Source of the DNA: Rugalucina vietnamica
Taxonomy: Eukaryota > Mollusca > Bivalvia > Lucinida > Lucinidae
Direction: 5' to 3'
Assembly: GCA_964017185.1 (NCBI GenBank)
Contig: OZ024876.1
Span: 18,116,226 to 18,180,225 of the forward strand
Length of the DNA stretch: 64,000 nucleotides
Below the pieces are notes generated by a model. It was not told where the DNA came from. It was given only the letters and a program-made list of their open reading frames with translations, and ran no database searches. Position 1 is the first letter of the stretch. Each line of letters starts with the position of its first letter. Positions 1 through 63,902 of the stretch are shown one piece after another. A program made the translations under genes and the position numbers.

Positions 1-1830
1 GTAGAGGACCATTAGCCATTGCTACATACCAAATATCAAAGCTGTGGGCCTAGTGGTTTCAGAGAAGAAGTTTAGTTTTTCCTATTGTAGGTCTATGGAG
101 ACTATCGACCCCCGGGGCGTTGCCAAATTTGACCCTGGGGACATGATTGGCATAATTTATGTAGAGGACCATTAGCCATTGCCACATACAAAATATCAAA
201 GCTGTGGGCCCTGTGGTTTTAGAGAAGAAGAATTTTGAATTTTTTTCCCATAGTAAGTCTATGGAGACTATCAACCCCCGGGGCGTGGCCAAATTTGACC
301 CCAGGGGCATGAATGGCACAATTTATGTAGAGGACCATTAGCCATTGCTACATACCAAATATCAAAGCTGTTGGCCTAGTGGTTTCAGAGGAGAAGATTT
401 TTTTAGTTTTTTTCCTATTGTAGGTCTATAGAGACTATCGACCCCCGGGCATGGCCAAATTTGACCCCAGGGACATGATTGGCATAATTTATGAAGAGGA
501 CCATTAGCCATTGCCACATACAAAATATCAAAGCTGTGGGCCCTGTGGTTTCAGAGAAGAAGATTTTTTTAATTTTTTTCCCATAGTAAGTCTATGGAGA
601 CTATCAACCCCCGGGGCGTGGCCAAATTGGACCCCAGGGGCATGAATGGCACAATTTATGTAGAGGACCATTAGCCATTGCTACATACCAAATATCAAAG
701 CTGTGGGCCTAGTGGTTTCAGAGAAGAAGATTTTTTTAGTTTTTCCAATTGTAAGTCTATGGAGACTATCGACCCCTGGGGCGTGGCCAAATTTGACCCC
801 AGGGGCATGGCTGGCACAATTTATGTAGAGGACCATTAGCCATTGCCACATACCAAATATCAAAGCTATGGGCCCTGTGGTTTCAGAGAAGAAGATTTTT
901 GAATTTTTTTTCCCATAGTAAGTCTATGGAGACTATCGACCCCCGGGGCGTGGCCAAATTTAACCCCAGGGGCATGAATGGCACAAATTATGTAGAGGTC
1001 CATTAGCCATTGCTACATACCAAATATCAAAGTTGTGGGCATAGTGGTTTCAGAGAAGAAGATTTTTTTAGTTTTTCCCATAGTAAGTCTATGGAGACTA
1101 TCGACCCCCGGGGCGTGGCCAAATTTGACCCCAGGGGCATGAATGGCACAATTTATGTAGAAGACCATTAGCCATTGCTACATACCAAATATCAAAGTTG
1201 TGGGCATAGTGGTTTCAGAGAAGAAGATTTTTTTAGTTTTTCCCATTGTAAGTCTATGGAGACTATCGACCCCCGGGGCGTGGCCAAATTTGACCCCAGG
1301 GGCATGGCTGGCACAATTTATGTAGAGGACCATTAGCCATTGCTACATACCAAATATCAAAGCTGTGGGCCCTGTGGTTTCAGAGAAGAAGATTTTTTAA
1401 TTTTTTTCCCATAGTAAGTCTATGGAGACTATCGACCCCCCGGGGCGTGGCCAAATTTGACCCCAGGGGCATGAATGGCACAATTTATGTAGAGGACCAT
1501 TAGCCATTGCTACATACCAAATATCAAAGCTGTGGGCCTAGTGGTTTCAGAGAAGAAGATTTTTTTAGTTTTTCCCATTGTAAGTCTATGGGACCTATCT
1601 GTTGCCATGGAAACCACAATTTTGATACAATCTGCTCCAAAACCTAATGCCATCAATCCCCCAACCCAATTATGGTTCACATTAAATTTGATCAAGATCG
1701 GCCTACTAGCTTCAGAAATATTCTTCTTTGAAATTGTGGACGGACGACGACGGACGACGACGACGACGGACGACGGATGCCTGCCTATCCTATAAGCTCA
1801 CCTTGTGAGCCTTCGGCTCAGGTGAGCTAA
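1..1830 (+). mobile_element. Tandem-core (pearl/Helentron-associated-like) element, copy P1, left end cut by window
   Basis: About nine tandem monomers of ~165 bp fill 1-1590; the phrase GGCGTGGCCAAATTTGACC recurs in most of them. A unique ~170-bp right part follows, then a GGACGACGAC-type microsatellite (1738-1785) and a terminal stem-loop (GAGCC-TTC-GGCTC, 1807-1819) running into AGGTGAGCTAA. This order (core repeats, microsatellite, 3' hairpin, CTAA end) is known from bivalve pearl elements and Helentron-associated elements, which are non-autonomous rolling-circle relatives. The 5' end is outside the window. No real gene lies inside: the minus-strand open frames persist because the monomer is a multiple of three. 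Confidence 0.8.
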
Positions 1831-7745: not shown

Positions 7746-9580
7746 CTAGAGGACCATTGGTCCTGTAGCTCACCTGAGAGATTATCACATTGTAAGCTCA
7801 TGAGATTTAAATTAATTGAGAATCGACCAATGAAAGTCTATGCATGGACACTATTGACCCCCAGGGCATGGCCAAATTTGACCCCAGGGGCATGACTGGC
7901 ACAATTCATAATGGGGACTACCGAACATTGCTACATACAAAATATAGAAGCTCTGGGCCTTTTGGTTTCAGAGAAGAAGATTTTTTTAGTTTTTCCCATT
8001 GTAAGTCTATGGAGACTATCTACCCCCGGGGCGTGGCCAAATTTGACCACAAGGGCATGGCTGGCACAATTTATGTAGAGGACCATTAGCCATTGCCACA
8101 TACAAAATATCAAAGCTGTGTGCCCTGTGGTTTCAGAGAAGAAGATTTTTGAATTTTTTTCCCATAGCAAGTCTATTGAGACTATCAACCTCCGGGGCCT
8201 GGCCAAATTTGACCCCAGGGGCATGAATGGCACAATTTATGTAGAGGACCATTAGCCATTGCCACATACCAAATATCAAAGCTGTGGGCCCTGTGGTTTC
8301 AGAGAAGAAGATTTTTGATTGTTTTTCCCATTGTAAGTCTATGGAGACTATCGACCCCCGGGGCGTGGCCAAATTTGACCCCGGGTACATGATTGGCACA
8401 ATTTATGTAGAGGACCATTAGCCATTGCCACATACCAAATATCAAAGCTGTGGGCCCTGTGGTTTCAGAGAAGAAGATTTTTGAATTTTTTTCCCATAGT
8501 AAGTCTATGGAGACTATCAACCCCCGGGGCGTGGCCAAATTTGACCCCAGGGGCATGAATGGCACAATTTATGTAGAGGACCATTAGCCATTGCTACATA
8601 CCAAATATCAAAGCTGTTGGCCTAGTGGTTTCAGAGAAGAAGATTTTTATAGTTTTTTTTTCCTATTGTAGGTCTATGGAGACTATCGACCGCCAAAGCG
8701 TGGCCAAATTTGACCCCAGGGGCATGATTGGCATAATTTATATAGAGGACCATTAGCCATTGCCACATACAAAATATCAAAGCTGTGGGCCCTGTGGTTT
8801 CAGAGAAGAAGATTTTTGAATTTTTTTCCCATAGTAAGTCTATGGAGACTATCAACCCCCGGGGCGTGGCCAAATTTGACCCCAGGGGCATGAATGGCAC
8901 AATTTATGTAGAGGACCATTAGCCATTGCTACATACCAAATATCAAAGCTGTGGGCCTAGTGGTTTCAGAGAAGAAGATTTTTTTAGTTTTTCCAATTGT
9001 AAGTCTATGGAGACTATCGACCCCCGGGGCGTGGCCAAATTTGATCCCAGGGGCATGGCTGGCACAATTTATGTAGAGGACCATTAGCCATTGCCGCATA
9101 CCAAATATCAAAGCTGTGGGCCCTGTGGTTTCAGAGAAGAAGATTTTTGAATTTTTTTCCCATAGTAAGTCTATGGAGACTATCGACCCCCGGGGCGTGG
9201 CAAAATTTGACCCCAGGGGCATGAATGGCACAATTTATGTAGAGGACCATTAGCCATTGCTACATACCAAATATCAAAGCTGTGGGCCTAGTGGTTTCAG
9301 AGAAGAAGATTTTTTTTTGTTTTTCCCATTGTAAGTCTATGGGACCTATCTGTTGCCATGGAAACCACAATTTTGATACAATCTGCTCCAAAACCTAATG
9401 CCATCAATCCCCCAACCCAATTATGGTTCACATTAAATTTGATCAAGATCGGCCTACTAGCTTCAGAAATATTCTTTGAAATTGTGGACGGACGACGGAC
9501 GGACGGACGGACGGACGGACGACGACGGATCCTGCCTATCCTATAAGCTCACCTGTGAGCCTTCGGCTCAGGTGAGCTAA
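7746..9580 (+). mobile_element. Tandem-core element, complete copy P2
   Basis: Full-length relative of P1. The 5' end has a perfect stem-loop (AGGACCATTGGTCCT, 7750-7764) followed by GTAGCTCACCTGA. Then come about nine ~165-bp monomers (GTCTATGGAGACTA starting near 8007, 8337, 8504, 8674, 8838, 9003 and 9168), a unique right part, a GGAC microsatellite (9486-9530), and the 3' stem-loop GAGCCTTCGGCTC followed by AGGTGAGCTAA. TAGCTCACCTGA near the 5' end is the inverse of TCAGGTGAGCTA near the 3' end, i.e. subterminal inverted repeats. No protein is encoded. Confidence 0.85.
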
Positions 9581-34853: not shown

Positions 34854-34903
34854 TGATGGTCTTTCTCATTAGTGAGAGACGAACTATCATGTGGTAAAAA
34901 CCC

Positions 34904-35270
34904 TTCAAATATCTTCTTCTCTGAAACCAATAGATTGACTTCAATGAAACTTGGCGTGAAGCATCCATGGCTATAGTACTACAATGTATATATAAATCAT
35001 GACCCTGTGATGACCTTGACCAAGTTTATGGCAAGGTCAACATGGGTTGCCCATGCATTTGAATGGGAAAAACTGTTAAAATGTCATTTGAAGGGAAAAG
35101 CCAGCAAGAAATTGGCAAATGGACAGAATATTGATTATTCTGAAAAAGGAAAACGGCCCAAGGGCTTCATCTGCCCCTGCACTGGGGTTAAATACCATAA
35201 TCTTCAAACCTGTTTATTGGTATATGCGGCAGACTCAGGTGAGCGTTTACAGGACCATTGGTCCTCTGGT
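34904..35270 (-). mobile_element. Tandem-core element fragment P6, 5' end only, reversed
   Basis: The complement carries CCAGAGGACCAATGGTCCTG at its 5' end (35250-35269), CGCTCACCTGAGTC, and then one monomer related to those at 46 and 52 kb (ATGCATTTGAATGGG, GACCTTGACC). The rest of the element is absent where LINE 3' sequence begins. Confidence 0.7.
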
Positions 35271-35865: not shown

Positions 35866-36070
35866 TATGAAAACACGTCCATGTAATACACAGATTTTTC
35901 CTAAGTTGTAAAAATTGAAGATTTTTGCCGAGGCGGTTCTAATGAGTACCCACAATATATGATTTGGATCAAAAATAAGAAAATTAGGTACCCCTGCAAA
36001 CCCCAGTTTTTCTATATACAAATGGGGTTTATGGGGGTATACATTTTATGGATGTTTTTCTGATGGATCA
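35866..36070. mobile_element. MITE-B copy 1
   Basis: It contains CCATGTAATACACAGATTTT, GCCGAGGCGGTTCTAATGAG, TACCCACAATATATG and the hairpin CCCCAGTTTTTCTATATACA / AAATGGGG. It preserves an uninterrupted TATATAGAAAAACTGGGG (on the complement), the exact empty site of the insertion at 52232. Confidence 0.75.
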
Positions 36071-44343: not shown

Positions 44344-47300
44344 GCTGATCAGCTGTGCAGTAACTGCACAGATGAGCTGCGGCTTTTTTTTCGCTCATGC
44401 AGAATGATGGTTTACTGATACGTCTGCTCAAATAATAGAAATATGATATTGTAAATCACATCTCCTTTGGTGTTAAAAGATGGTTTAGAATTCTGCAGCA
44501 GATTGATATTTCTACAAAAATACATGTATGGGCATACCTTTGGCTGTTTCCTGAGATTCGGTGACAGCTTACAACTAGTAACATTACCCCTGGAAAAGTA
44601 AACAAACAGTTGTGAGATACATTATGAATAAACACCCATGTAATATACAGGTTTTACCTAAGTTGTAAAAATTGAAAAATTTCAGAAGAAATTTTTTTCA
44701 TATTTTTCTTATTTTGTACACGGTTCTAACGAGTACCCACAATCCATGTTTTGGAGCAAAAATAAGAAAAATAGACATACCCCAGTTTTGCTATATAAAA
44801 GTGGGGTATAAGGGGCTATATGTTACATGGAAATGTTATTCTGATGTAAGTTCCCTCACGAGTTGTCACATCAGGCTCAGAGCTTAAAAAATTGTTTTCA
44901 TGCTCAACTCAGCTGAGACCAAAATTTATCCTGCTCATAGATGTTAGAATGCCAACATAATCTTAACCTGAAATTTCTACCAATTTCAGTTATTTTAAGA
45001 TTTAAGAGCAGATTAAAATTACATGCTCAGCTGAGTTGAGCATGAATTATCGGGCCTGGACAAAAACAGGTCCACCAAGAAATGACTCGTTATAATGGAA
45101 AATGCATTTTTTTTTTTACCACAATTCCTCTTCTACTTAAATCCGAAATTTCAAGCTTCTAGCTCTTTTCTGTGCTTGTACAGCTCGGTTTGTGTCGGAC
45201 CTGTTTGGAAACCACATTGTTGGTTTTCCCATGAGGCGGCTCATTTTGTAGTAAAAAAGTTACCTATCATCTCCTACTATGAGAATGGGGTAGGTGGGGT
45301 TAAACTCTAGATGTGTCAGTTTGGTCTTCTTCTTCTGAGCCACCATCTGTTCACACAATGGCTCGTACTTGTTCACGTTCAGATCATACACAAATAACTG
45401 AAACAGCAGGGAAATCATTAACTCGTTACGAAAACCAGCCGTGCAATATACAGAGATTTTTACAGCTGGAAAATGAATTATTTCATTTCAGCCTGCGCGT
45501 GAGAACCAAACAATTTGGGTTCCGACCAGAGCCGACACATACTGGGCTGTACAGTCACAGAAGACGGTTAGAGGCTGGAAAGTTTGGATTTAGAAAGTAA
45601 TGGAATTGTACTATCCATGTAGCGAAAACAAAGGCGCTGATCAGCTTCGCAGTTACTGCGAAGCTGATCTGCACCTTTGTTTTCGCCTATGCAGATTGTT
45701 GGTTTTCCCATCCGGCGACTCATTTAAAGATGCCGCCATACTATATCCTATGTACTGAGAAACCATCTTAGGCATAGTGGTTAAGCCATTCCACTTGTCA
45801 ACCAGGGTTCGAGGATTTGAATGCGGGTTTTTTTCTGTCCTTCAGTTGAGATGACAAACTGAGGTCCCTTAAAAATGTCCAGCACAAACTTCTGACAAGG
45901 ATATAGTGTAATGAGGCTGTGTGCCAATAAGTAGTCAAATGGACCCAGTCTTCAGTACTGACTAATGGACAGAATCTCTACATACATATACAAAGCATAT
46001 ACAGATAAATGGTGGTCTAAAATTTTTAAGTTTTGTTGATTAAATAAGAAGGTTATAATTACTTTAAAATTCAGGAACCAGAGGACCAATGGTCCTGTAA
46101 AACGCTCACCTGAAACACGAGATACCAATAAACTTGTTTGACTAGAATGGTAATATACATGTATATAACCCCAGGGCCGGGTCAGAGCAACCCTTGGAGT
46201 CAATTTCTTTTTGAAAACATAAAACTTCAGTCCATTTGCCAATATACTGCAAGTTTTGCCCTTCAAATGACATTTTAACAATTTTCCCCATTCAAATGCA
46301 TGGGCGACCTATGTTGACCATGCCGTAAAATAGGTCAAGGCCATCCAAGGGTCACGATTTATATAAAATTTGTAGAGCCTGATGCTTCATGCCAAGTTTC
46401 AAAATCATAGGCCTTCTGGTTCTGGACAAAAAAGATTTTTAAAGGTTTTTGCTATTTATAGCCATGACGGCCATCTTGGTCATGTGACCTGGACCATTTA
46501 TATAAACTTTCGTTCCCCCTTCCTAAGGATGCTCCACATGAAGTTTGGCTTTGATTGGCCAAGCCATTTCAGAGAAGAAGATCTTTGAACATTATGATAA
46601 TATACATGTATATTACCCCGGGGTGGGGGCAGACCTGCCCCTGGGGTCCAATTTGTTTTAGAATCATAAATGTCAAGTCCCTTTGCCCATTTCCATTAAG
46701 TATTTTCCCTCAAATGACATTTTGACAATTTTCCCCATTCAAATGCATGGGCGACACATGTTGACCTTGCCATAAAATAGGTCAAGGTCATCCCAGGGTC
46801 ATGATCTATATAAACTTTGTAGAGCTCCTCACCCTGATGCTTCATGCCAAGTTTCAAAATCGTAGGCCTTCTGGTTCTGGAGAAGAAGATTTTTAAAGGT
46901 TTATGCTATTTATAGCCATGGCAGCCATCTTGGTCATGTGACCTTGACCAATTATACATACTTTCATTCCCACTTCCTAATAATGTTCCTCATAAAGTTT
47001 GGCTTTGATTGGCCAAGCAGTTTCAGAGAAGAAGATCTTTGAATATCACTGTAATATACATGTATATTGCCCCGGGGTGGGGCAGACAGACCCCTGGGGT
47101 CCAAATTTTTTCAGAATCATCAATCTTAAGTGCATTTGCCCATTTCCTGCAAGTTTTTCCCTACAAATGACATTTCAACACTTTTCCCAATTCAAATGCA
47201 TGAGTGAACTATGTTGACCTTGCCGTAAAATAGGTCAAGGTCATCCCAGTGTCATGATTTATATAAAATTTGTAGAACTCCAGTCACTGATGCTTCACAC

Positions 47301-50300
47301 CAAGTTTCAAAATCATTGGCCTTCTGGTTCTGGAGAAGAAGATTTTTAAAGTTTTTTTTTCTATTTATAGCCTTGGCAGCCATCTTGGTCATGTGACCTT
47401 GACCATTTATATAAACTTTCTTTCCCCCTTCCCAAGGATGCTCCATATGAAGTTTGGCTTTGATTGGCCAAGCGGTTTCAGGGGAGAAGACGTTTCATTA
47501 TTATGGAAATATACATGTATATAGCCCCGGGGCAGGGGCAGACACACCCCCAGGGGCTAAAATTTTCCATTAACATTAATCTTCTGTCCATTTGCCTATT
47601 CCCAGTTAGTTTTACCCATTTAATAGCATTTTACCATTTTTTCCCATTCAAATGCATTGGCGACCTAAGTTGACCTTGCCGTAAAATAGGTCAAGGTCAT
47701 CCTAGGGTCATGATTTATATAAACTATGATGGACCCACATCCCCGATACTACATACCAAGTTTCATGGAAATCGGCCCACTGGTTCTGGAGAAGAAGATT
47801 TTTAAAGGTTTTTGCTATTTATAGCCATGGCGGCCATCTTGGTCATGTGACCTGGACCATTTATATAAACTTTCGTTCCCCCTTCCTAAGGATGCTCCAC
47901 ATGAAGTTTGGCTTTGATTGGCCAAGCGGTTTCAGAGGAGAAGATCTTTGAAATTGTGAACGACGGACGACGACGGAGCATGGGTATACTATAAGCTCAC
48001 CTGTGAGCCTTCGGCTCAGGTGAGCTAAAAAATTAAGCAATTGCAACACAAGTCACAGTAAAGTGGCAATAAACTTTAAGGATAAAAAATAAGAATGCAG
48101 TGGATATATTTCCTCAGATTAAAGATAAACTCCTGCTGAATTAGATTAACATCAATTGACTCCTCCGCCAGCAAGGTATAGCCACGCCAACCCCTATTTC
48201 CTTAGACAAACATTGTGTTTTTGTACCTGTAAAAAGCACATGTTGGTTTGTTTGTCTAACCCACGTGTTGTCTAACCGTCATTGACCGTTAGCTAATGTG
48301 CACGTTTGAATGGTCAATATAAAATGAATATTAATGATGGGTGGTTTGACGGAGGACTCAATTACATGACAGCTGCGATGCCAGAAAACTGGTATTCCTG
48401 GTTTCCAACCAGATCTGACACAAACCAGTCTGAAAAGTAACAGAAGAAAGCTAGAAATTTCAGATTTAAGAAGAGAGATTGTAATATCTGAGAAGCGAAA
48501 ACATGGGCGCTGGTTACTGAACAGCTGATCTGCGTCTTTGTTTTTGCATATAGGTAAAAATAATCTAGTTTTCTAATGACGAGGTGTATGTGAAATGAGC
48601 CACCTCATGGGAAAACCAACAATTTGCATATGCGAAAACAAAGACGCAGAACAGCTTCATGGTAACCGCGAAGCTGATCAGCGCCTTTATTTTCGCTACA
48701 CGGATAGTACAATCCCTCTACTTCCTAAATAGGAAATTTCATGCTTCTAGCTGTTTTCTGTTACTGTGCAGTCCGGTTTGTGTCAGACCTGGTCGGACAC
48801 CACATTGTTTGTTTTCCCACGAGGCAGCCCACAAGAAAGAAAAGCCAACCTTTCCATCAGCTGTGACAGCAGCAAATACTGTGGAGGAGTATGGTGCCCA
48901 CGCTACATCACCCACAGAGTTGTTGAGGTCAAACGTGAACAAGGGTTTCCTGAAACATTCAAAAGTATGTGTGGCATGAAATTATTTCTAAATATACATG
49001 TAGTATGAATTTGTTAATTTGAACAAAGATTTTGAAAGTACTAAAATTTTCAGACATTGTTTGCTGGTCCTGAAAATTTCCATTATATTATTTTTTGTGA
49101 TTTTTTTTTTTTAAAGTTTGAACTCTCAATCGTTCGAAAGATTTTATGTTACCCCTTGCAATTTGAATTATTGAACTTAAGACTTTACTTCACATAATGA
49201 GCAGTATAGAGGGAAAGCCTGTTCCAGAGATTATATAAACTTCTTCACTTTTCATTCTAGACTGAGCACAATATCTAAAATGCTATAGATAGATTCTGAA
49301 ATAACCAAATGTGGTAGGAATTTCAGATTTACATTAGAAAAGCCTGTCATTTATTTTGCTGACAAATGTTAAAATGTCAACGACTTTTGGCATTTTAACA
49401 TTTATCAGCAACATAAATCTTAGTCTCAGACGTGTTGAGCATGAAATGTTTCATAAACTTGGAGCCTGGGCTTTCGCATATGCAAAAAAAAAAGTACAGA
49501 TCAGCTGCGCAGTACATCTGCACAGCTGATCAGCGCTTTTGTTTTCGCTTCTTCTTAATTCCAAAATTTTAAGCTTCTAGCCTGTTTCAGTGACCAGTTT
49601 GTGTCAGATGTGGCCAGAAACCTTCAGTCTTACTTGTTTGTGGAGTCTGGTCCTGAGTCATTCTTATCAGCTGTTGTTTTGGTTCCAACTTCCCAGATCT
49701 TCACTGTCCAGTCAGCACTGCACGTGAGGTAAATACGAGGGTGGTACGGGTTCCAGCGAACCTACAAATGTTTAGGATACATTCATTATTATAATAACAC
49801 ATTTTTTGTTGCTTTATGTCCTTGGTCAGCAGCAGTAGTCATGTTGGGCTAGTCATTTATCCTAGCCACACTGTTCCTCGGCAAGCTGTTAGCAGCAGGT
49901 ACCAGTATTCAGTGCACATTTCTTTTTTATTAACTTGCAAATGATTGTTCAGGAATCAGTGGACACTGAAGATTGGCCCTTCATGAGGATTGCTACCTTG
50001 TTGGGAAAGAGCTAGTCTTTCAGCTCTTCGAGTGTGTTGGAAAAATGTTTTGTTATGTTTATGTATTTTCTTTCCCACCTGGTGTCTATGTTGGTACATT
50101 AGATTTAATTGCATCGATTCCTGGTCCCTCTGTTCTTACTTTTCTCCAATTGTATGTTGTGGGCTTACCCATGTGGTGAAATAGGTGACATTTATTTGAT
50201 CAAAATGGCCAACATATTTGCAAAAGGAAAAGCTGTTTCTATCCCTACCTTATATACTGCCATATTATGAGCATCCATGGAATCTAAAAACTGACTACTG

Positions 50301-51487: not shown

Positions 51488-54400
51488 GGGGCTCTTGTAT
51501 TACTAACCTAGAGTGTTTATCTTGGTACCATCTGGTCCATCTGAGGGGGTATCAGGTGATGCAAGCTTGATGATATCCTGGAATACTAGCTCATTCTGGA
51601 AATATATAGGCCATTATATTATCATGGGAAAACTGGCTTTTTGCACATGCAAAAACAAAGACCCAGTTGTAACTGCACAGCTGATCAGCGTTATTGTTTT
51701 TTCTTCATGAAAAGTACAATCCCTCTTCTTAAATTCTAAACTTTAAGCTCACAGCCATCTTCTATGATGGAAACCCTGAAGACCTGTTTTCTTGGGTCAT
51801 GGCTAATATAGGTAAACTGGTCAACATAAGTTAAGCATAGGCTTAAATTTTACCACAGGTTTAATGCAAAATCTGTCAACTATTTTGACACATTGTAATT
51901 TAACTGATTAATATTTTCGTTCAAATATGGGAGGCAAAGCAGCAATGATTCTCCTAACTTACCATATCCATTCTATCTAGCGCACTGTGCACTTGATTTT
52001 TAACACTTGTCTCCAAAATGTTATTAAAGTTTCATTCTACTTAGCGCACACAAAACTAAAACTGGGCTTATTGTCACATGCACCAATTTGAACAAATACA
52101 GTAGTTTGAACTAGTTTCACTCTTATCAATAAGGATTCCACAGAGCACCAGACATTTCAGAAACCATCCTGAACATCAGGAAAACATGTCCGTGCAATAT
52201 ATACCCCCTTAAACCCCACTTTTATATAGAATCAGAGGACCAATGGTCCTGTAAACGCTCACCTGAGACCTGAGATATATATATGTACCAATAAACTTGT
52301 TAGACTAGAATGGTACAATGCATGTATATAACCCTAGGGCAGGGTCAGAATAACTCCTGGAGTCAATGTCTTTTTCAAATCATAAAAATACAGTCCATTT
52401 GCCAATTAACTGCAAGTTTTGTCCTTCAAATGACATTTTAACAATTTTCTCCATTCAAATTGATGGGCCATCTAAGTTGACCTTGCCGTGAAATAGGTCA
52501 AGGTCATCCCAGTGTCATGATTTATACATATTTATGGTTCTGAAGAAGAAGATTCTTAAAAATTATTGCTATTTATAGCCATGGCGGCCATCTTGGTCAT
52601 GTGACCTTGACCATTTATATAAACTTTCATTTCCTCTTCCTAAGGATGCTCCACATAAAGTTTGGCTTTGATTGGCTAAGCAGTTTCTGAGAAAAAGCTG
52701 TTTGAATATTATGGTCATCAACATGTATAATATAGCTCCGGGGCAGGGGCAGACAACTCCTGGGCCTAAAATATTTTCATAAGCATAAATCTTTTGTCCA
52801 TTTGCTCATTCCTAGCAAGTTTTCTGCAATTACATGACATTTTCCTATTTTTCCCATTCAAATGCATGGGCGACCTAAGTTGACCATGCCGTAAAATAGG
52901 TCAAGGTCATGCCAGGGTCATGATTTACATAAACTTTGAAGAGCTCCATTCCCAGATGCTTCATACCAAGTTTCAAAATCACAGGCCTTCTGGTTATGAA
53001 GAAGAAGATTTTAAAACGTTTTTGCTATCTATAGCCATGGCGGCCATCTTGGTCATGTGACCATGACCATTTATACAAACTTTCATTCCCTCTTCCTAAG
53101 GATGTTCCACACAAAGTTTGGCTTTGATTGGCCAAGTGGTTTCAGAGAAGAAGATGTTTCAATATTATGGTCATATACAAGTATATAGCCCCGGGGCAGG
53201 GGCAGACAACCCCCTGGGCCCAAAATATTTTCTTAAACATAAATCTTCTGTCCATTTGCTCATTTCTAGCAAGTTTTCTGCCATTTAATTACATTTTCCT
53301 ATTTTTTCCCATTCCAATGCATGGGAGACCTAAGTTGACCATGCCGTAAAATAGGTCAAGGTCATCCCAGGGACATGATTTATATTAACTTTGTAGAGCT
53401 CCATTCCCAGATGTTTCACACCAAGTTTCAAAGTCATAGGCCTTCTGGTTCTGAAGAAGAAGATTTTTAAACGTTTTTGCTATTTATAGCCATGGCGGCC
53501 ATCTTGGTCATGTGACCTTAACCACTTATATAAACTTTCATTCCCCCTTTCCCAAGGATGCTCCACATGAAGTTTGGCTTTGATTGGCAAAGCGGTTTCA
53601 GAGAAGAAGATGTTTGAATATTATGGTCATATACATGTATATAGCCCCGGGGCAGGGGCAGACAACCCCCCAGGGGCTTAAATTTTCCATTAACATTAAT
53701 CTTCTGTCCATTTGCCTATTCCCAGTAAGTTTTACCCATTAAATAGCTTTTTACCATTTTTCCCATTCAAATGCATTGGCGACCTAAGTTGACCTTGCCG
53801 TAAAATAGGTCAAGGTCATCCTAGGGTCATGATTTATATAAACTATGATGGGCCCGCCTCCGGGCTTACCTCCCCGATGCTACATACCAAGTTTCGTGGA
53901 AATCAGCCCACTGGTTCTGGAGAAGAAGATTTTTAAACTTTTTGCTATTTATAGCCATGGTGGCCATCTTGTTCATGTGACCTGAACCATTTATATAAAC
54001 TTTCGTTCCCCCTTCCTAAGGATGCTCCACATGAAGTTTGGCCTTGATTGGCCAAGCGGTTTCAGAGGAGAAGATCTTTGAAATTGTGGACGACGGACGA
54101 CGACGGACGGACGCCGGAGCATGGGTATACTATAAGCTCACTTGTGAGCCTTCGGCTCAGGTGAGCTAAAAACTGGGGTATGCAGGGGTATACCCTTATT
54201 TCTCAAAACACAGATTGTGGGTACACGTTAGAACCGCCTCATCGAGTGTACCCCCCAAAATCGAGTGTACCCCCCAAAATCTATGCTTTGAGCAAAAATA
54301 AGAAAAATATCAAAAATTTTCTACTGAAAATTTTCAAGTTTTATGACTGGAGAAAAATCTGTATATTACATGGGCCTGTTTACGTAATGATGGCTGCAAA

Positions 54401-63629: not shown

Positions 63630-63902
63630 AACACACCCATGCAATATACAGAGCATTTTTTCAGCATTAAAAATTGAAAACTTCATTGGAAAAAAAATGA
63701 TGTTCTTAATATATTTGCTCAAAACATTGATTGTGGATACAGGTTAGAACTGCCTCGGCGAGGCAGTTCTAACGAGTACCCACAATCTATGTTTTGGATA
63801 AAAAAAAAAGAAAAATATATATATATCCATGTAGACCCCAGTTTTTCTAATGAAAAAATGGGGTGTATGGGGTATATAATTACACAGAAATGTTAGTCTG
63901 AT
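63630..63902. mobile_element. MITE-B copy
   Basis: CACCCATGCAATATACAGAG, GGTTAGAACTGCCTCGGCGA facing GAGGCAGTTCTAACGAGTAC, and the hairpin CCCCAGTTTTTCTAATGAAA / AAATGGGG. Uninterrupted. Confidence 0.75.

Follow-up and report, generated by a model that had tools for sequence, protein, structure and literature searches.

The element P5, found in a 64,000-nucleotide stretch of the Rugalucina vietnamica genome (the window; contig OZ024876.1, positions 18,116,226 to 18,180,225), is with a probability of about 0.94 a HINE, i.e., a non-autonomous, internally repetitive rolling-circle transposon of the Helentron/Helitron2 branch, lying on the minus strand and most likely mobilised by a RepHel-endonuclease encoded in the same genome. 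This reading rests on its termini, palindromes, asymmetric repeats and target, on the absence of a long target duplication, and on coding relatives with the same ends and core, all of which were observed. The element and the DNA around its insertion were mapped as follows (window coordinates):

52232..54169, minus strand: the whole element, a HINE of non-autonomous Helentron type, 1,938 bp (empty-site comparison and shared termini)
52178..52231, plus strand: left host flank, part of the interrupted MITE-B (empty-site comparison)
54170..54392, plus strand: right host flank, the rest of the MITE-B and sequence past its end (empty-site comparison)
35998..36016, minus strand: empty target site, identical to the joined flanks (alignment of joined flanks)

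Read on the forward strand, the junctions are ..TATATAGAA ^ TCAGAGGACC ... GAGCTAA ^ AAACTGGGG.. at 52231/52232 and 54169/54170 (^ marks a junction here and below). The joined flanks, TATATAGAAAAACTGGGG, are kept exactly in the MITE-B copy at 35998-36016 (complement), with one base different at the junction in the copy near 44780 and with more differences in the copy near 63845 (the initial annotation had named all three, the last two as near matches); in the window, the joined-flank query aligned over the junction at 36065-35930, 44847-44721 and 63903-63754. In a genome search with 100 nt of joined flanks, 40 of 571 candidates were scored as matches. All 40 crossed the junction, and 31 ran from base 1-3 to base 99-100. 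Within the fetched DNA, 50 matches spanned the junction, 44 of them without an indel near it (some places counted twice). The claim that P5 splits a MITE-B at these very bases is borne out, since the joined flanks are uninterrupted elsewhere in the window and in 40/40 genome matches, and so is the claim that the insertion made no target duplication: nothing past an ambiguous T/A run is needed to account for the junction. The right flank also holds a 19-bp short direct repeat of 2.2 copies (54241-54281).

Both ends of P5 are shared by a large family. With one mismatch or fewer, the genome held 23,140 left ends and 18,725 right ends and none of the reversed control patterns, so these ends are not chance matches. 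Forty places, chosen by likeness to P5 over its length, were read (one of them, L050, is a copy already in the window), and 35 of them presented an ungapped left/right end pair, the exceptions being L022, L029, L034, L046 and L049. Together with two window copies and the abutting ends of L070, the 35 pairs made 38 entries, corresponding to 37 elements, 36 of them distinct because L050 and the window copy at 46079-48028 are one locus. The 36 distinct full copies, P5 included, had the same two ends and measured 1,920-2,076 bp, a narrow range that partly reflects their selection by likeness to P5; among exact ends on chromosome C1, 18 of 93 left ends had an exact right end within 6 kb, at distances from 1.05 to 5.06 kb. 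The median identity of each entry to the others was 93-96%, except for P5 (91%) and the 46079-48028 copy (86%). In L070 and L094 a right end directly abuts the next left end, forming head-to-tail neighbours without host DNA; the abutting ends of L094 read ..GGTCCTCTGG-T-TTAGCTCACC.. A literature search with the end sequences gave no related paper, judged by titles. The other family members in the window were:

46079..48028, minus strand, as P5: second full copy, 84% identical over its length
7747..9580, minus strand: related copy, right end 7747-7769 and left end 9565-9580, which probably belong to one element
1657..1830, minus strand, as P5: left-end piece of a further related copy (alignment within the window)
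34897..35268, plus strand, opposite to P5: right-end piece of a further copy

Once copies were compared, the two ends on which the initial annotation had relied fared differently. The CTAA end, from which it allowed no variation, is constant, with T frequencies of 99% and 96% over 90 distinct left ends, about one third of them fetched with a pattern already containing the CTAA letters. The TC start, taken for a Helitron-type terminus, turned out to be a private substitution: of 54 distinct right ends, 94% have G as the first base after ..CTCT and 93% as the second, most copies having CTGG, and P5 alone of the 54 reads ..CTCTGA.

On the minus strand the 5′ end of P5 is at 54169 and its 3′ end at 52232, and the parts between them are:

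54130..54169, minus strand: 5′ end TTAGCTCACCTGAGCCGAAGGCTCACAAGTGAGCTTATAG, a near-complete palindrome forming a hairpin with a GAA loop (folding)
54156..54166, minus strand: 5′ subterminal inverted repeat GCTCACCTGAG, from the fourth base of the element
54088..54112, minus strand: short GTCC/GTCG microsatellite beside the 5′ module (coordinates counted by eye)
52535..54089, minus strand: satellite-like tandem core, unit of ~456 bp, ~3.4 copies (Tandem Repeats Finder)
52257..52267, minus strand: 3′ subterminal inverted repeat CTCAGGTGAGC, 25 bases before the 3′ end
52236..52250, minus strand: 3′ hairpin AGGACC-ATT-GGTCCT, followed by CTGA (CTGG in most copies) (folding)

The 5′ palindrome, which opens TTA-GCTCACCTGAG.., folded at -10.1 kcal/mol (z -4.3), and 0/200 shuffles were as stable; the 3′ side ends CTCAGGTGAGC-GTTTAC-AGGACCATTGGTCCT-CTGA, and its hairpin was of modest stability (-4.4 kcal/mol, z -2.3, 5/200 shuffles as stable). 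The coding copy described below has a stronger 5′ palindrome (-14.3) and a 3′ hairpin that did not stand out from shuffles (z -0.8, 37/200). In HINEs and Helentrons the subterminal repeats share 11 or more identical bp and the 5′ repeat lies 2-4 nt in; that of P5 starts at nt 4. The asymmetric terminal inverted repeats of Helitron2 (5′, 0-2 bp in with a hairpin; 3′, 20-30 bp before the end with a hairpin) are matched as well, with the shared 11-bp repeat starting 3 bp in.

The last five bases before AGCTCACC were TTTTT in 59, TTATT in 14 and TTGTT in 6 of 90 distinct left flanks, the final TT being the element's own end, and the first host base after ..CTCTGG was T in 94% of the 54 distinct right ends. 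The target is T-rich, TT[T/A/G]^T, which appears A-rich in the orientation of the initial annotation, and is not A^T. Twelve copies, including P5, had an element-free match to their joined flanks in the fetched DNA. No base was added at the junction in eight of them (L013, L015, L027, L028, L032, L045, L047 and P5, by their best comparisons, some of which reached only 71-85% identity). None of the 36 comparisons for L020 was indel-free near the junction, the six printed having one T fewer than the occupied site; likewise none of 11 for L033, where the six printed are without 2-3 bases and the extra bases cannot be assigned. L014 showed a G/T difference at the junction, and the comparison for L024 was strongly diverged. 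At L013 the occupied letters ..GGTTA^TAAAAC, set against the empty ..GGTTATAAAAC, exclude a TT duplication. Target duplications longer than 2 bp, which the initial annotation had named as evidence against its reading, were thus not clear in any of the 12 copies. A T-rich, TT-type target, no target duplication and ends confirmed by empty sites are what is found in HINEs and Helentrons, a 1-bp T duplication being possible within the T run. At least three of the 12 copies (L014, L020 and L032) had landed in a further abundant repeat, which occurs at 10 places with three mismatches or fewer in the window (38223-62985) and whose 20-mer has 17,442 exact genome copies.

Coding relatives were sought with the Helitron_like_N model (PF14214), which gave 150 scored matches out of 409 candidates in the genome; open frames of at least 2,500 aa hold 48 of the 150. 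The region C1:9276001-9295000, read whole, contains a coding element at C1:9279486-9292994, with its left end at 9279486 and its right end, CTCAGGTGAGCGTTTACAGGACCAATGGTCCTCTGG^TTTT, from 9292959; no other family end was found between the two. Its core repeats are spaced 455 bp, and the tandem core of P5 aligns to them with only 75% identity, which speaks somewhat against a close relation. One 2,521-codon frame carries matches to Herpes_teg_N, DUF6570, Helitron_like_N and PIF1, followed by a C-terminal part resembling endonucleases/exonucleases/phosphatases; the domain search gave no DDE transposase match in this copy. The C-terminal part matched PF03372 at E 5e-5 (23.5 v 24.5 bits, below the Pfam cut-off) and PF14529 at E 1e-4, also below the cut-off, and had no PDB match by sequence. 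It also has GDFN and SDH motifs, which we take to be hallmarks of the endonuclease/exonuclease/phosphatase family. The upstream extension of the RepHel frame into the Herpes_teg_N match and DUF6570 was seen at L083:6960-8999 and L081:3-5522, and other Helitron_like_N matches lie in frames of up to 3,542 aa. The same region (L083 and L081) has three members one after another on one strand: the first is represented by its right end, the second is ~2.5 kb long and the third is the coding element, the gaps being ~64 and 437 bp; core matches in the ~2.5-kb member are spaced in multiples of ~166 bp, against ~456. The strongest Helitron_like_N match (C10:56656966-56657502, E 9e-53, in a frame of 1,453 aa) stood apart from the others in score and may represent a different Helitron family.

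From the 150, twelve further RepHel copies with long frames and a similar profile range were picked. A search of the RepHel strand placed the right end where it was expected in 11 of the 12, and the twelfth window stopped in sequence that the whole-read copy has upstream of its right end; the left end, sought for six of the 12, was found in all six. The left part of one copy with a 2,621-aa frame (L098) was ~95% identical to HINE copies over the 691 nt that were read, a stretch separated by 5.6 kb from the RepHel match, and the other five left ends were 79-86% identical to HINE copies. Coding partners with the same termini, as expected of HINEs and Helentrons, were therefore present, one as an element read end to end and the rest in partial windows. 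Judged by these shared ends and core, P5 likely has coding partners in its own genome. The authors of the oyster study were unable to link any of their 10 autonomous elements to the Cg_HINEs (PMC7492417), and a small literature search, over sources available in part, found no such coding partner named for bivalve HINEs.

Accepting P5 as a HINE, the RepHel-endonuclease of the coding copies would most likely nick at the 5′ end (TTAGCTCACC.., palindrome), one strand would be peeled off while the donor is resynthesised, transfer would stop at the 3′ module (subterminal repeat, hairpin and CTCTGG), and the copy would be joined into a T-rich TT[T/A/G]^T site without target duplication. The 5′ subterminal repeat could pair either within its own palindrome or with the 3′ repeat, and Bao and Jurka suggested that alternative pairing of the 5′ repeat with the 3′ one marks the end point (PMC3627910). 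P5 itself would have been moved by these proteins and may have arisen by loss of the coding part.

The placement of P5 with rolling-circle transposons made by the initial annotation stands, as elements of the same genome with Rep, helicase and endonuclease-like parts share its termini and core; its subtype, its polarity and the argument from TC and CTAA do not. The right-to-left polarity in the window is based on the direction of RepHel and on analogy, with the caveat that some published Helitron2/Helentron families have a reversed RepHel (PMC3627910, PMC4067079). A variant of this explanation is that the element belongs to Helitron2 without endonuclease, i.e., that the mobiliser is a plain RepHel whose C-terminal part is no nuclease. 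Helitron2 is defined by the same termini (PMC3627910). We consider the variant improbable: the endonuclease match falls just under the Pfam cut-off, but two models of the endonuclease/exonuclease/phosphatase family hit the same C-terminal part (E 5e-5 and 1e-4). The GDFN and SDH motifs, presumed hallmarks, are also present there.

Much less credible is a canonical Helitron (Helitron1) in the orientation of the initial annotation, with TC at its 5′ end, a hairpin and then CTAA at its 3′ end, and A residues on both sides of the insertion. P5 does start TC and end in a hairpin and CTAA, and the hairpin before CTAA is stable (energy z -5.4); however, the TC occurs in 1/54 distinct right ends, a hairpin is found at the other end too, whereas Helitron1 has none at its 5′ end, the target is T-rich rather than A^T, and RepHel copies with these ends run the opposite way. 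On the coding strand the stem-loop with CTAA, formerly taken for the 3′ end, is the 5′ end, TTAG and a palindrome. The GTCC/GTCG microsatellite, moreover, lies beside what this reading takes for the 3′ end; in Cg_HINEs that position corresponds to the left flank, for which the motif GTCY/GTCC/GTCK has been published in several elements (PMC7492417). We reject the canonical reading on the private TC, the second hairpin, the RepHel direction and the target. A foldback or MITE-like cut-and-paste element, which the inverted repeats near both P5 ends and the high copy number might recall, can be practically dismissed, as there is no clear target duplication, the repeats are asymmetric and not terminal, and the whole-read coding copy encodes a Helitron Rep and a PIF1 helicase domain and nothing that matches a DDE transposase.

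Among the closest known systems is the Cg_HINE group of the Pacific oyster (Vojvoda Zeljko et al. 2020, PMC7492417), which shares with P5 a left module composed of a subTIR, a complementary IR and a GTCY/GTCC/GTCK microsatellite, a satellite-like core, a right module of subTIR and palindrome, and a T-rich, preferably TT target without TSD; P5 differs in its core unit of ~456 bp and in having coding elements with the same termini and core. HINE/DINE-1 elements and Helentrons (Thomas et al. 2014, PMC4067079) have in common with P5 the subTIRs of at least 11 bp, the 3′ stem-loop and the tandem core, and mite HINEs have a palindromic 5′ subTIR, as in P5, although their 3′ subTIR lies 38-60 nt from the end as compared with 25 nt in P5 (PMC4067079). 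Helentrons also share the T-flanked insertion and a RepHel fused to an endonuclease (here a match below the cut-off), whereas the long N-terminal part with the Herpes_teg_N match and DUF6570 in the same frame as RepHel distinguishes the family studied here (PMC4067079). Helitron2 (Bao and Jurka 2013, PMC3627910) has asymmetric terminal inverted repeats in the same positions, hairpins at both ends and a 5′ T, and the P5 3′ repeat, at 25 nt, falls within its range of 20-30; its RepHel protein is without endonuclease according to PMC4067079, unlike that of the coding family here. FoHeli1/2 of Fusarium oxysporum (PMC5148889) resemble P5 in a 5′ hairpin with a GAA loop (CC-GAA-GG) whose arm is the inverted repeat, in a 3′ inverted repeat upstream of the end, and in termini confirmed by pre-insertion sites; they differ in being fungal, in ending ATTTT, in the target TNAT^A and, in the available text, in having no satellite core described.

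Neighbouring copies of the family share strand over up to ~20-50 kb on 19 Mb of C1, and control repeats do not. Three lists of exact left ends, each giving the first places on C1, reached 18.9, 8.8 and 14.2 Mb; the first and second represent the same sequence class to different depth, and the three pooled gave at least 254 distinct left ends (0-18.9 Mb). Among the left ends listed, same-strand pairs were 14/14 below 2 kb, 16/18 at 2-6 kb, 62/79 at 6-20 kb, 114/181 at 20-50 kb, 132/225 at 50-100 kb and 252/472 at 100-200 kb, values reached by 0, 1, 0, 0, 6 and 61 of 1,000 label shuffles, respectively. The pairs closer than 6 kb were 30 tandem, 2 tail-to-tail and 0 head-to-head. Thinning to one left end per 6 kb (225 places) left 45/59 at 6-20, 80/130 at 20-50 and 96/177 at 50-100 kb, reached by 0, 9 and 268 of 2,000 shuffles; because of this last value, coherence beyond 50 kb is not established. 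By region (0-4, 4-8 and 8-19 Mb), the counts were 12/13, 33/43 and 17/23 at 6-20 kb and 22/35, 67/99 and 25/47 at 20-50 kb, so that coherence past 20 kb comes mostly from 4-8 Mb. Right ends alone, many from the same elements, gave 15/18 at 6-20 kb and 29/44 at 20-50 kb, and two disjoint left-end sequence classes agreed in strand in 19/24 and 41/65 pairs at these distances. Weaker or contrary counts came from the first list alone, with 6/8 at 6-20, 6/17 at 20-50 and 11/31 at 50-100 kb.

Three control repeats on the same chromosome, the first two reaching only 5.9 Mb and the third sparse, had same-strand counts of 20/49, 12/32 and 3/10 at 6-20 kb (pooled 35/91, below one half), 40/70, 27/57 and 9/16 at 20-50 kb, 4/14, 8/12 and 1/3 at 2-6 kb, and 3/4, 2/6 and 4/9 below 2 kb. 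The second, MITE-B, is a poor control because its motif also sits inverted in the same repeat, and without it the pooled count at 6-20 kb was 23/59; another control repeat, with 1,059 places, was left out as too sparse. Runs tests on the three left-end lists gave z -2.4, -2.2 and -1.3; once same-strand copies closer than 6 kb were merged, the values were -1.7, -1.3 and -0.7. The distance-binned tests were preferred, since merging removes the pairs in question. RepHel copies paired by eye at 50-200 kb (not computed) showed no coherence, with 4 same and 4 opposite. Skew in T-A and G-C relative to element strand was not significant in 60 upstream flanks (z 0.4 and 1.9) or in 31 downstream flanks (z 0.8 and -1.3), and therefore, as a proxy, supports neither replication nor transcription; this test left out L011-L020 as repeats of L001-L010, in the case of L020 wrongly.

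Candidate causes of the coherence may include a strand-specific single-stranded state during replication or transcription, selection on orientation in genes, and tandem insertion chains or duplications. We tentatively put forward, as a possibility that we rate well short of even, that host DNA sets insertion polarity over tens of kb, in which case the strands of thousands of old insertions would preserve, like fossils, the direction of replication forks or of transcription in the animal germline. The source of polarity might be, by analogy, the lagging-strand template or another strand-specific single-stranded state: for IS200/IS605 a review describes insertion orientation that follows local strand polarity and the direction of replication (PMC5371812), a likeness that concerns strand coherence only, as those elements are bacterial and the replication link is experimental there and only a possibility here.

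Slightly less probable, and in our judgement unlikely, is that coherence comes from tandem or segmental duplication, or from elements carrying flanking DNA and a second copy. Helitron clusters and tandem arrays are known, the arrays being ascribed to bypassed termination (PMC4067079, PMC5148889), and a right end abuts the next left end in two places here (L070 and L094). On the other side, 11 distinct right-to-next-left spacers were mutually unrelated, save two that share a repeat; one spacer, searched with the first 376 of its 611 bases, had no second copy among 40 candidates scored; and the upstream flanks of 33 C1 left ends showed no duplication between neighbours, one pair 1.2 Mb apart being 87% alike. 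These spacer and flank checks cover a minority of the same-strand pairs. The agreement in strand of two left-end sequence classes (19/24 at 6-20 kb) also speaks against duplication. A composite mobile unit as the cause of same-strand chaining was rejected as unsupported by the spacers.

P5 itself is ordinary for its kind; coding elements that share termini and core with high-copy HINEs were lacking in the oyster study. Because the coding elements found here do share them, the idea that satellite arrays are spread by Helentrons can now be put to the test, both in sequences and in assays. The strand coherence may be a new observation: no report of coherence over tens of kb with host DNA between copies was found in the literature covered, which was seen in part and took in few subscription papers. 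If it extends genome-wide and stems from neither selection in genes nor duplication, the orientation of rolling-circle insertions would reflect a strand-specific property of animal chromosomes and would bear on when and on which strand these transposons integrate.
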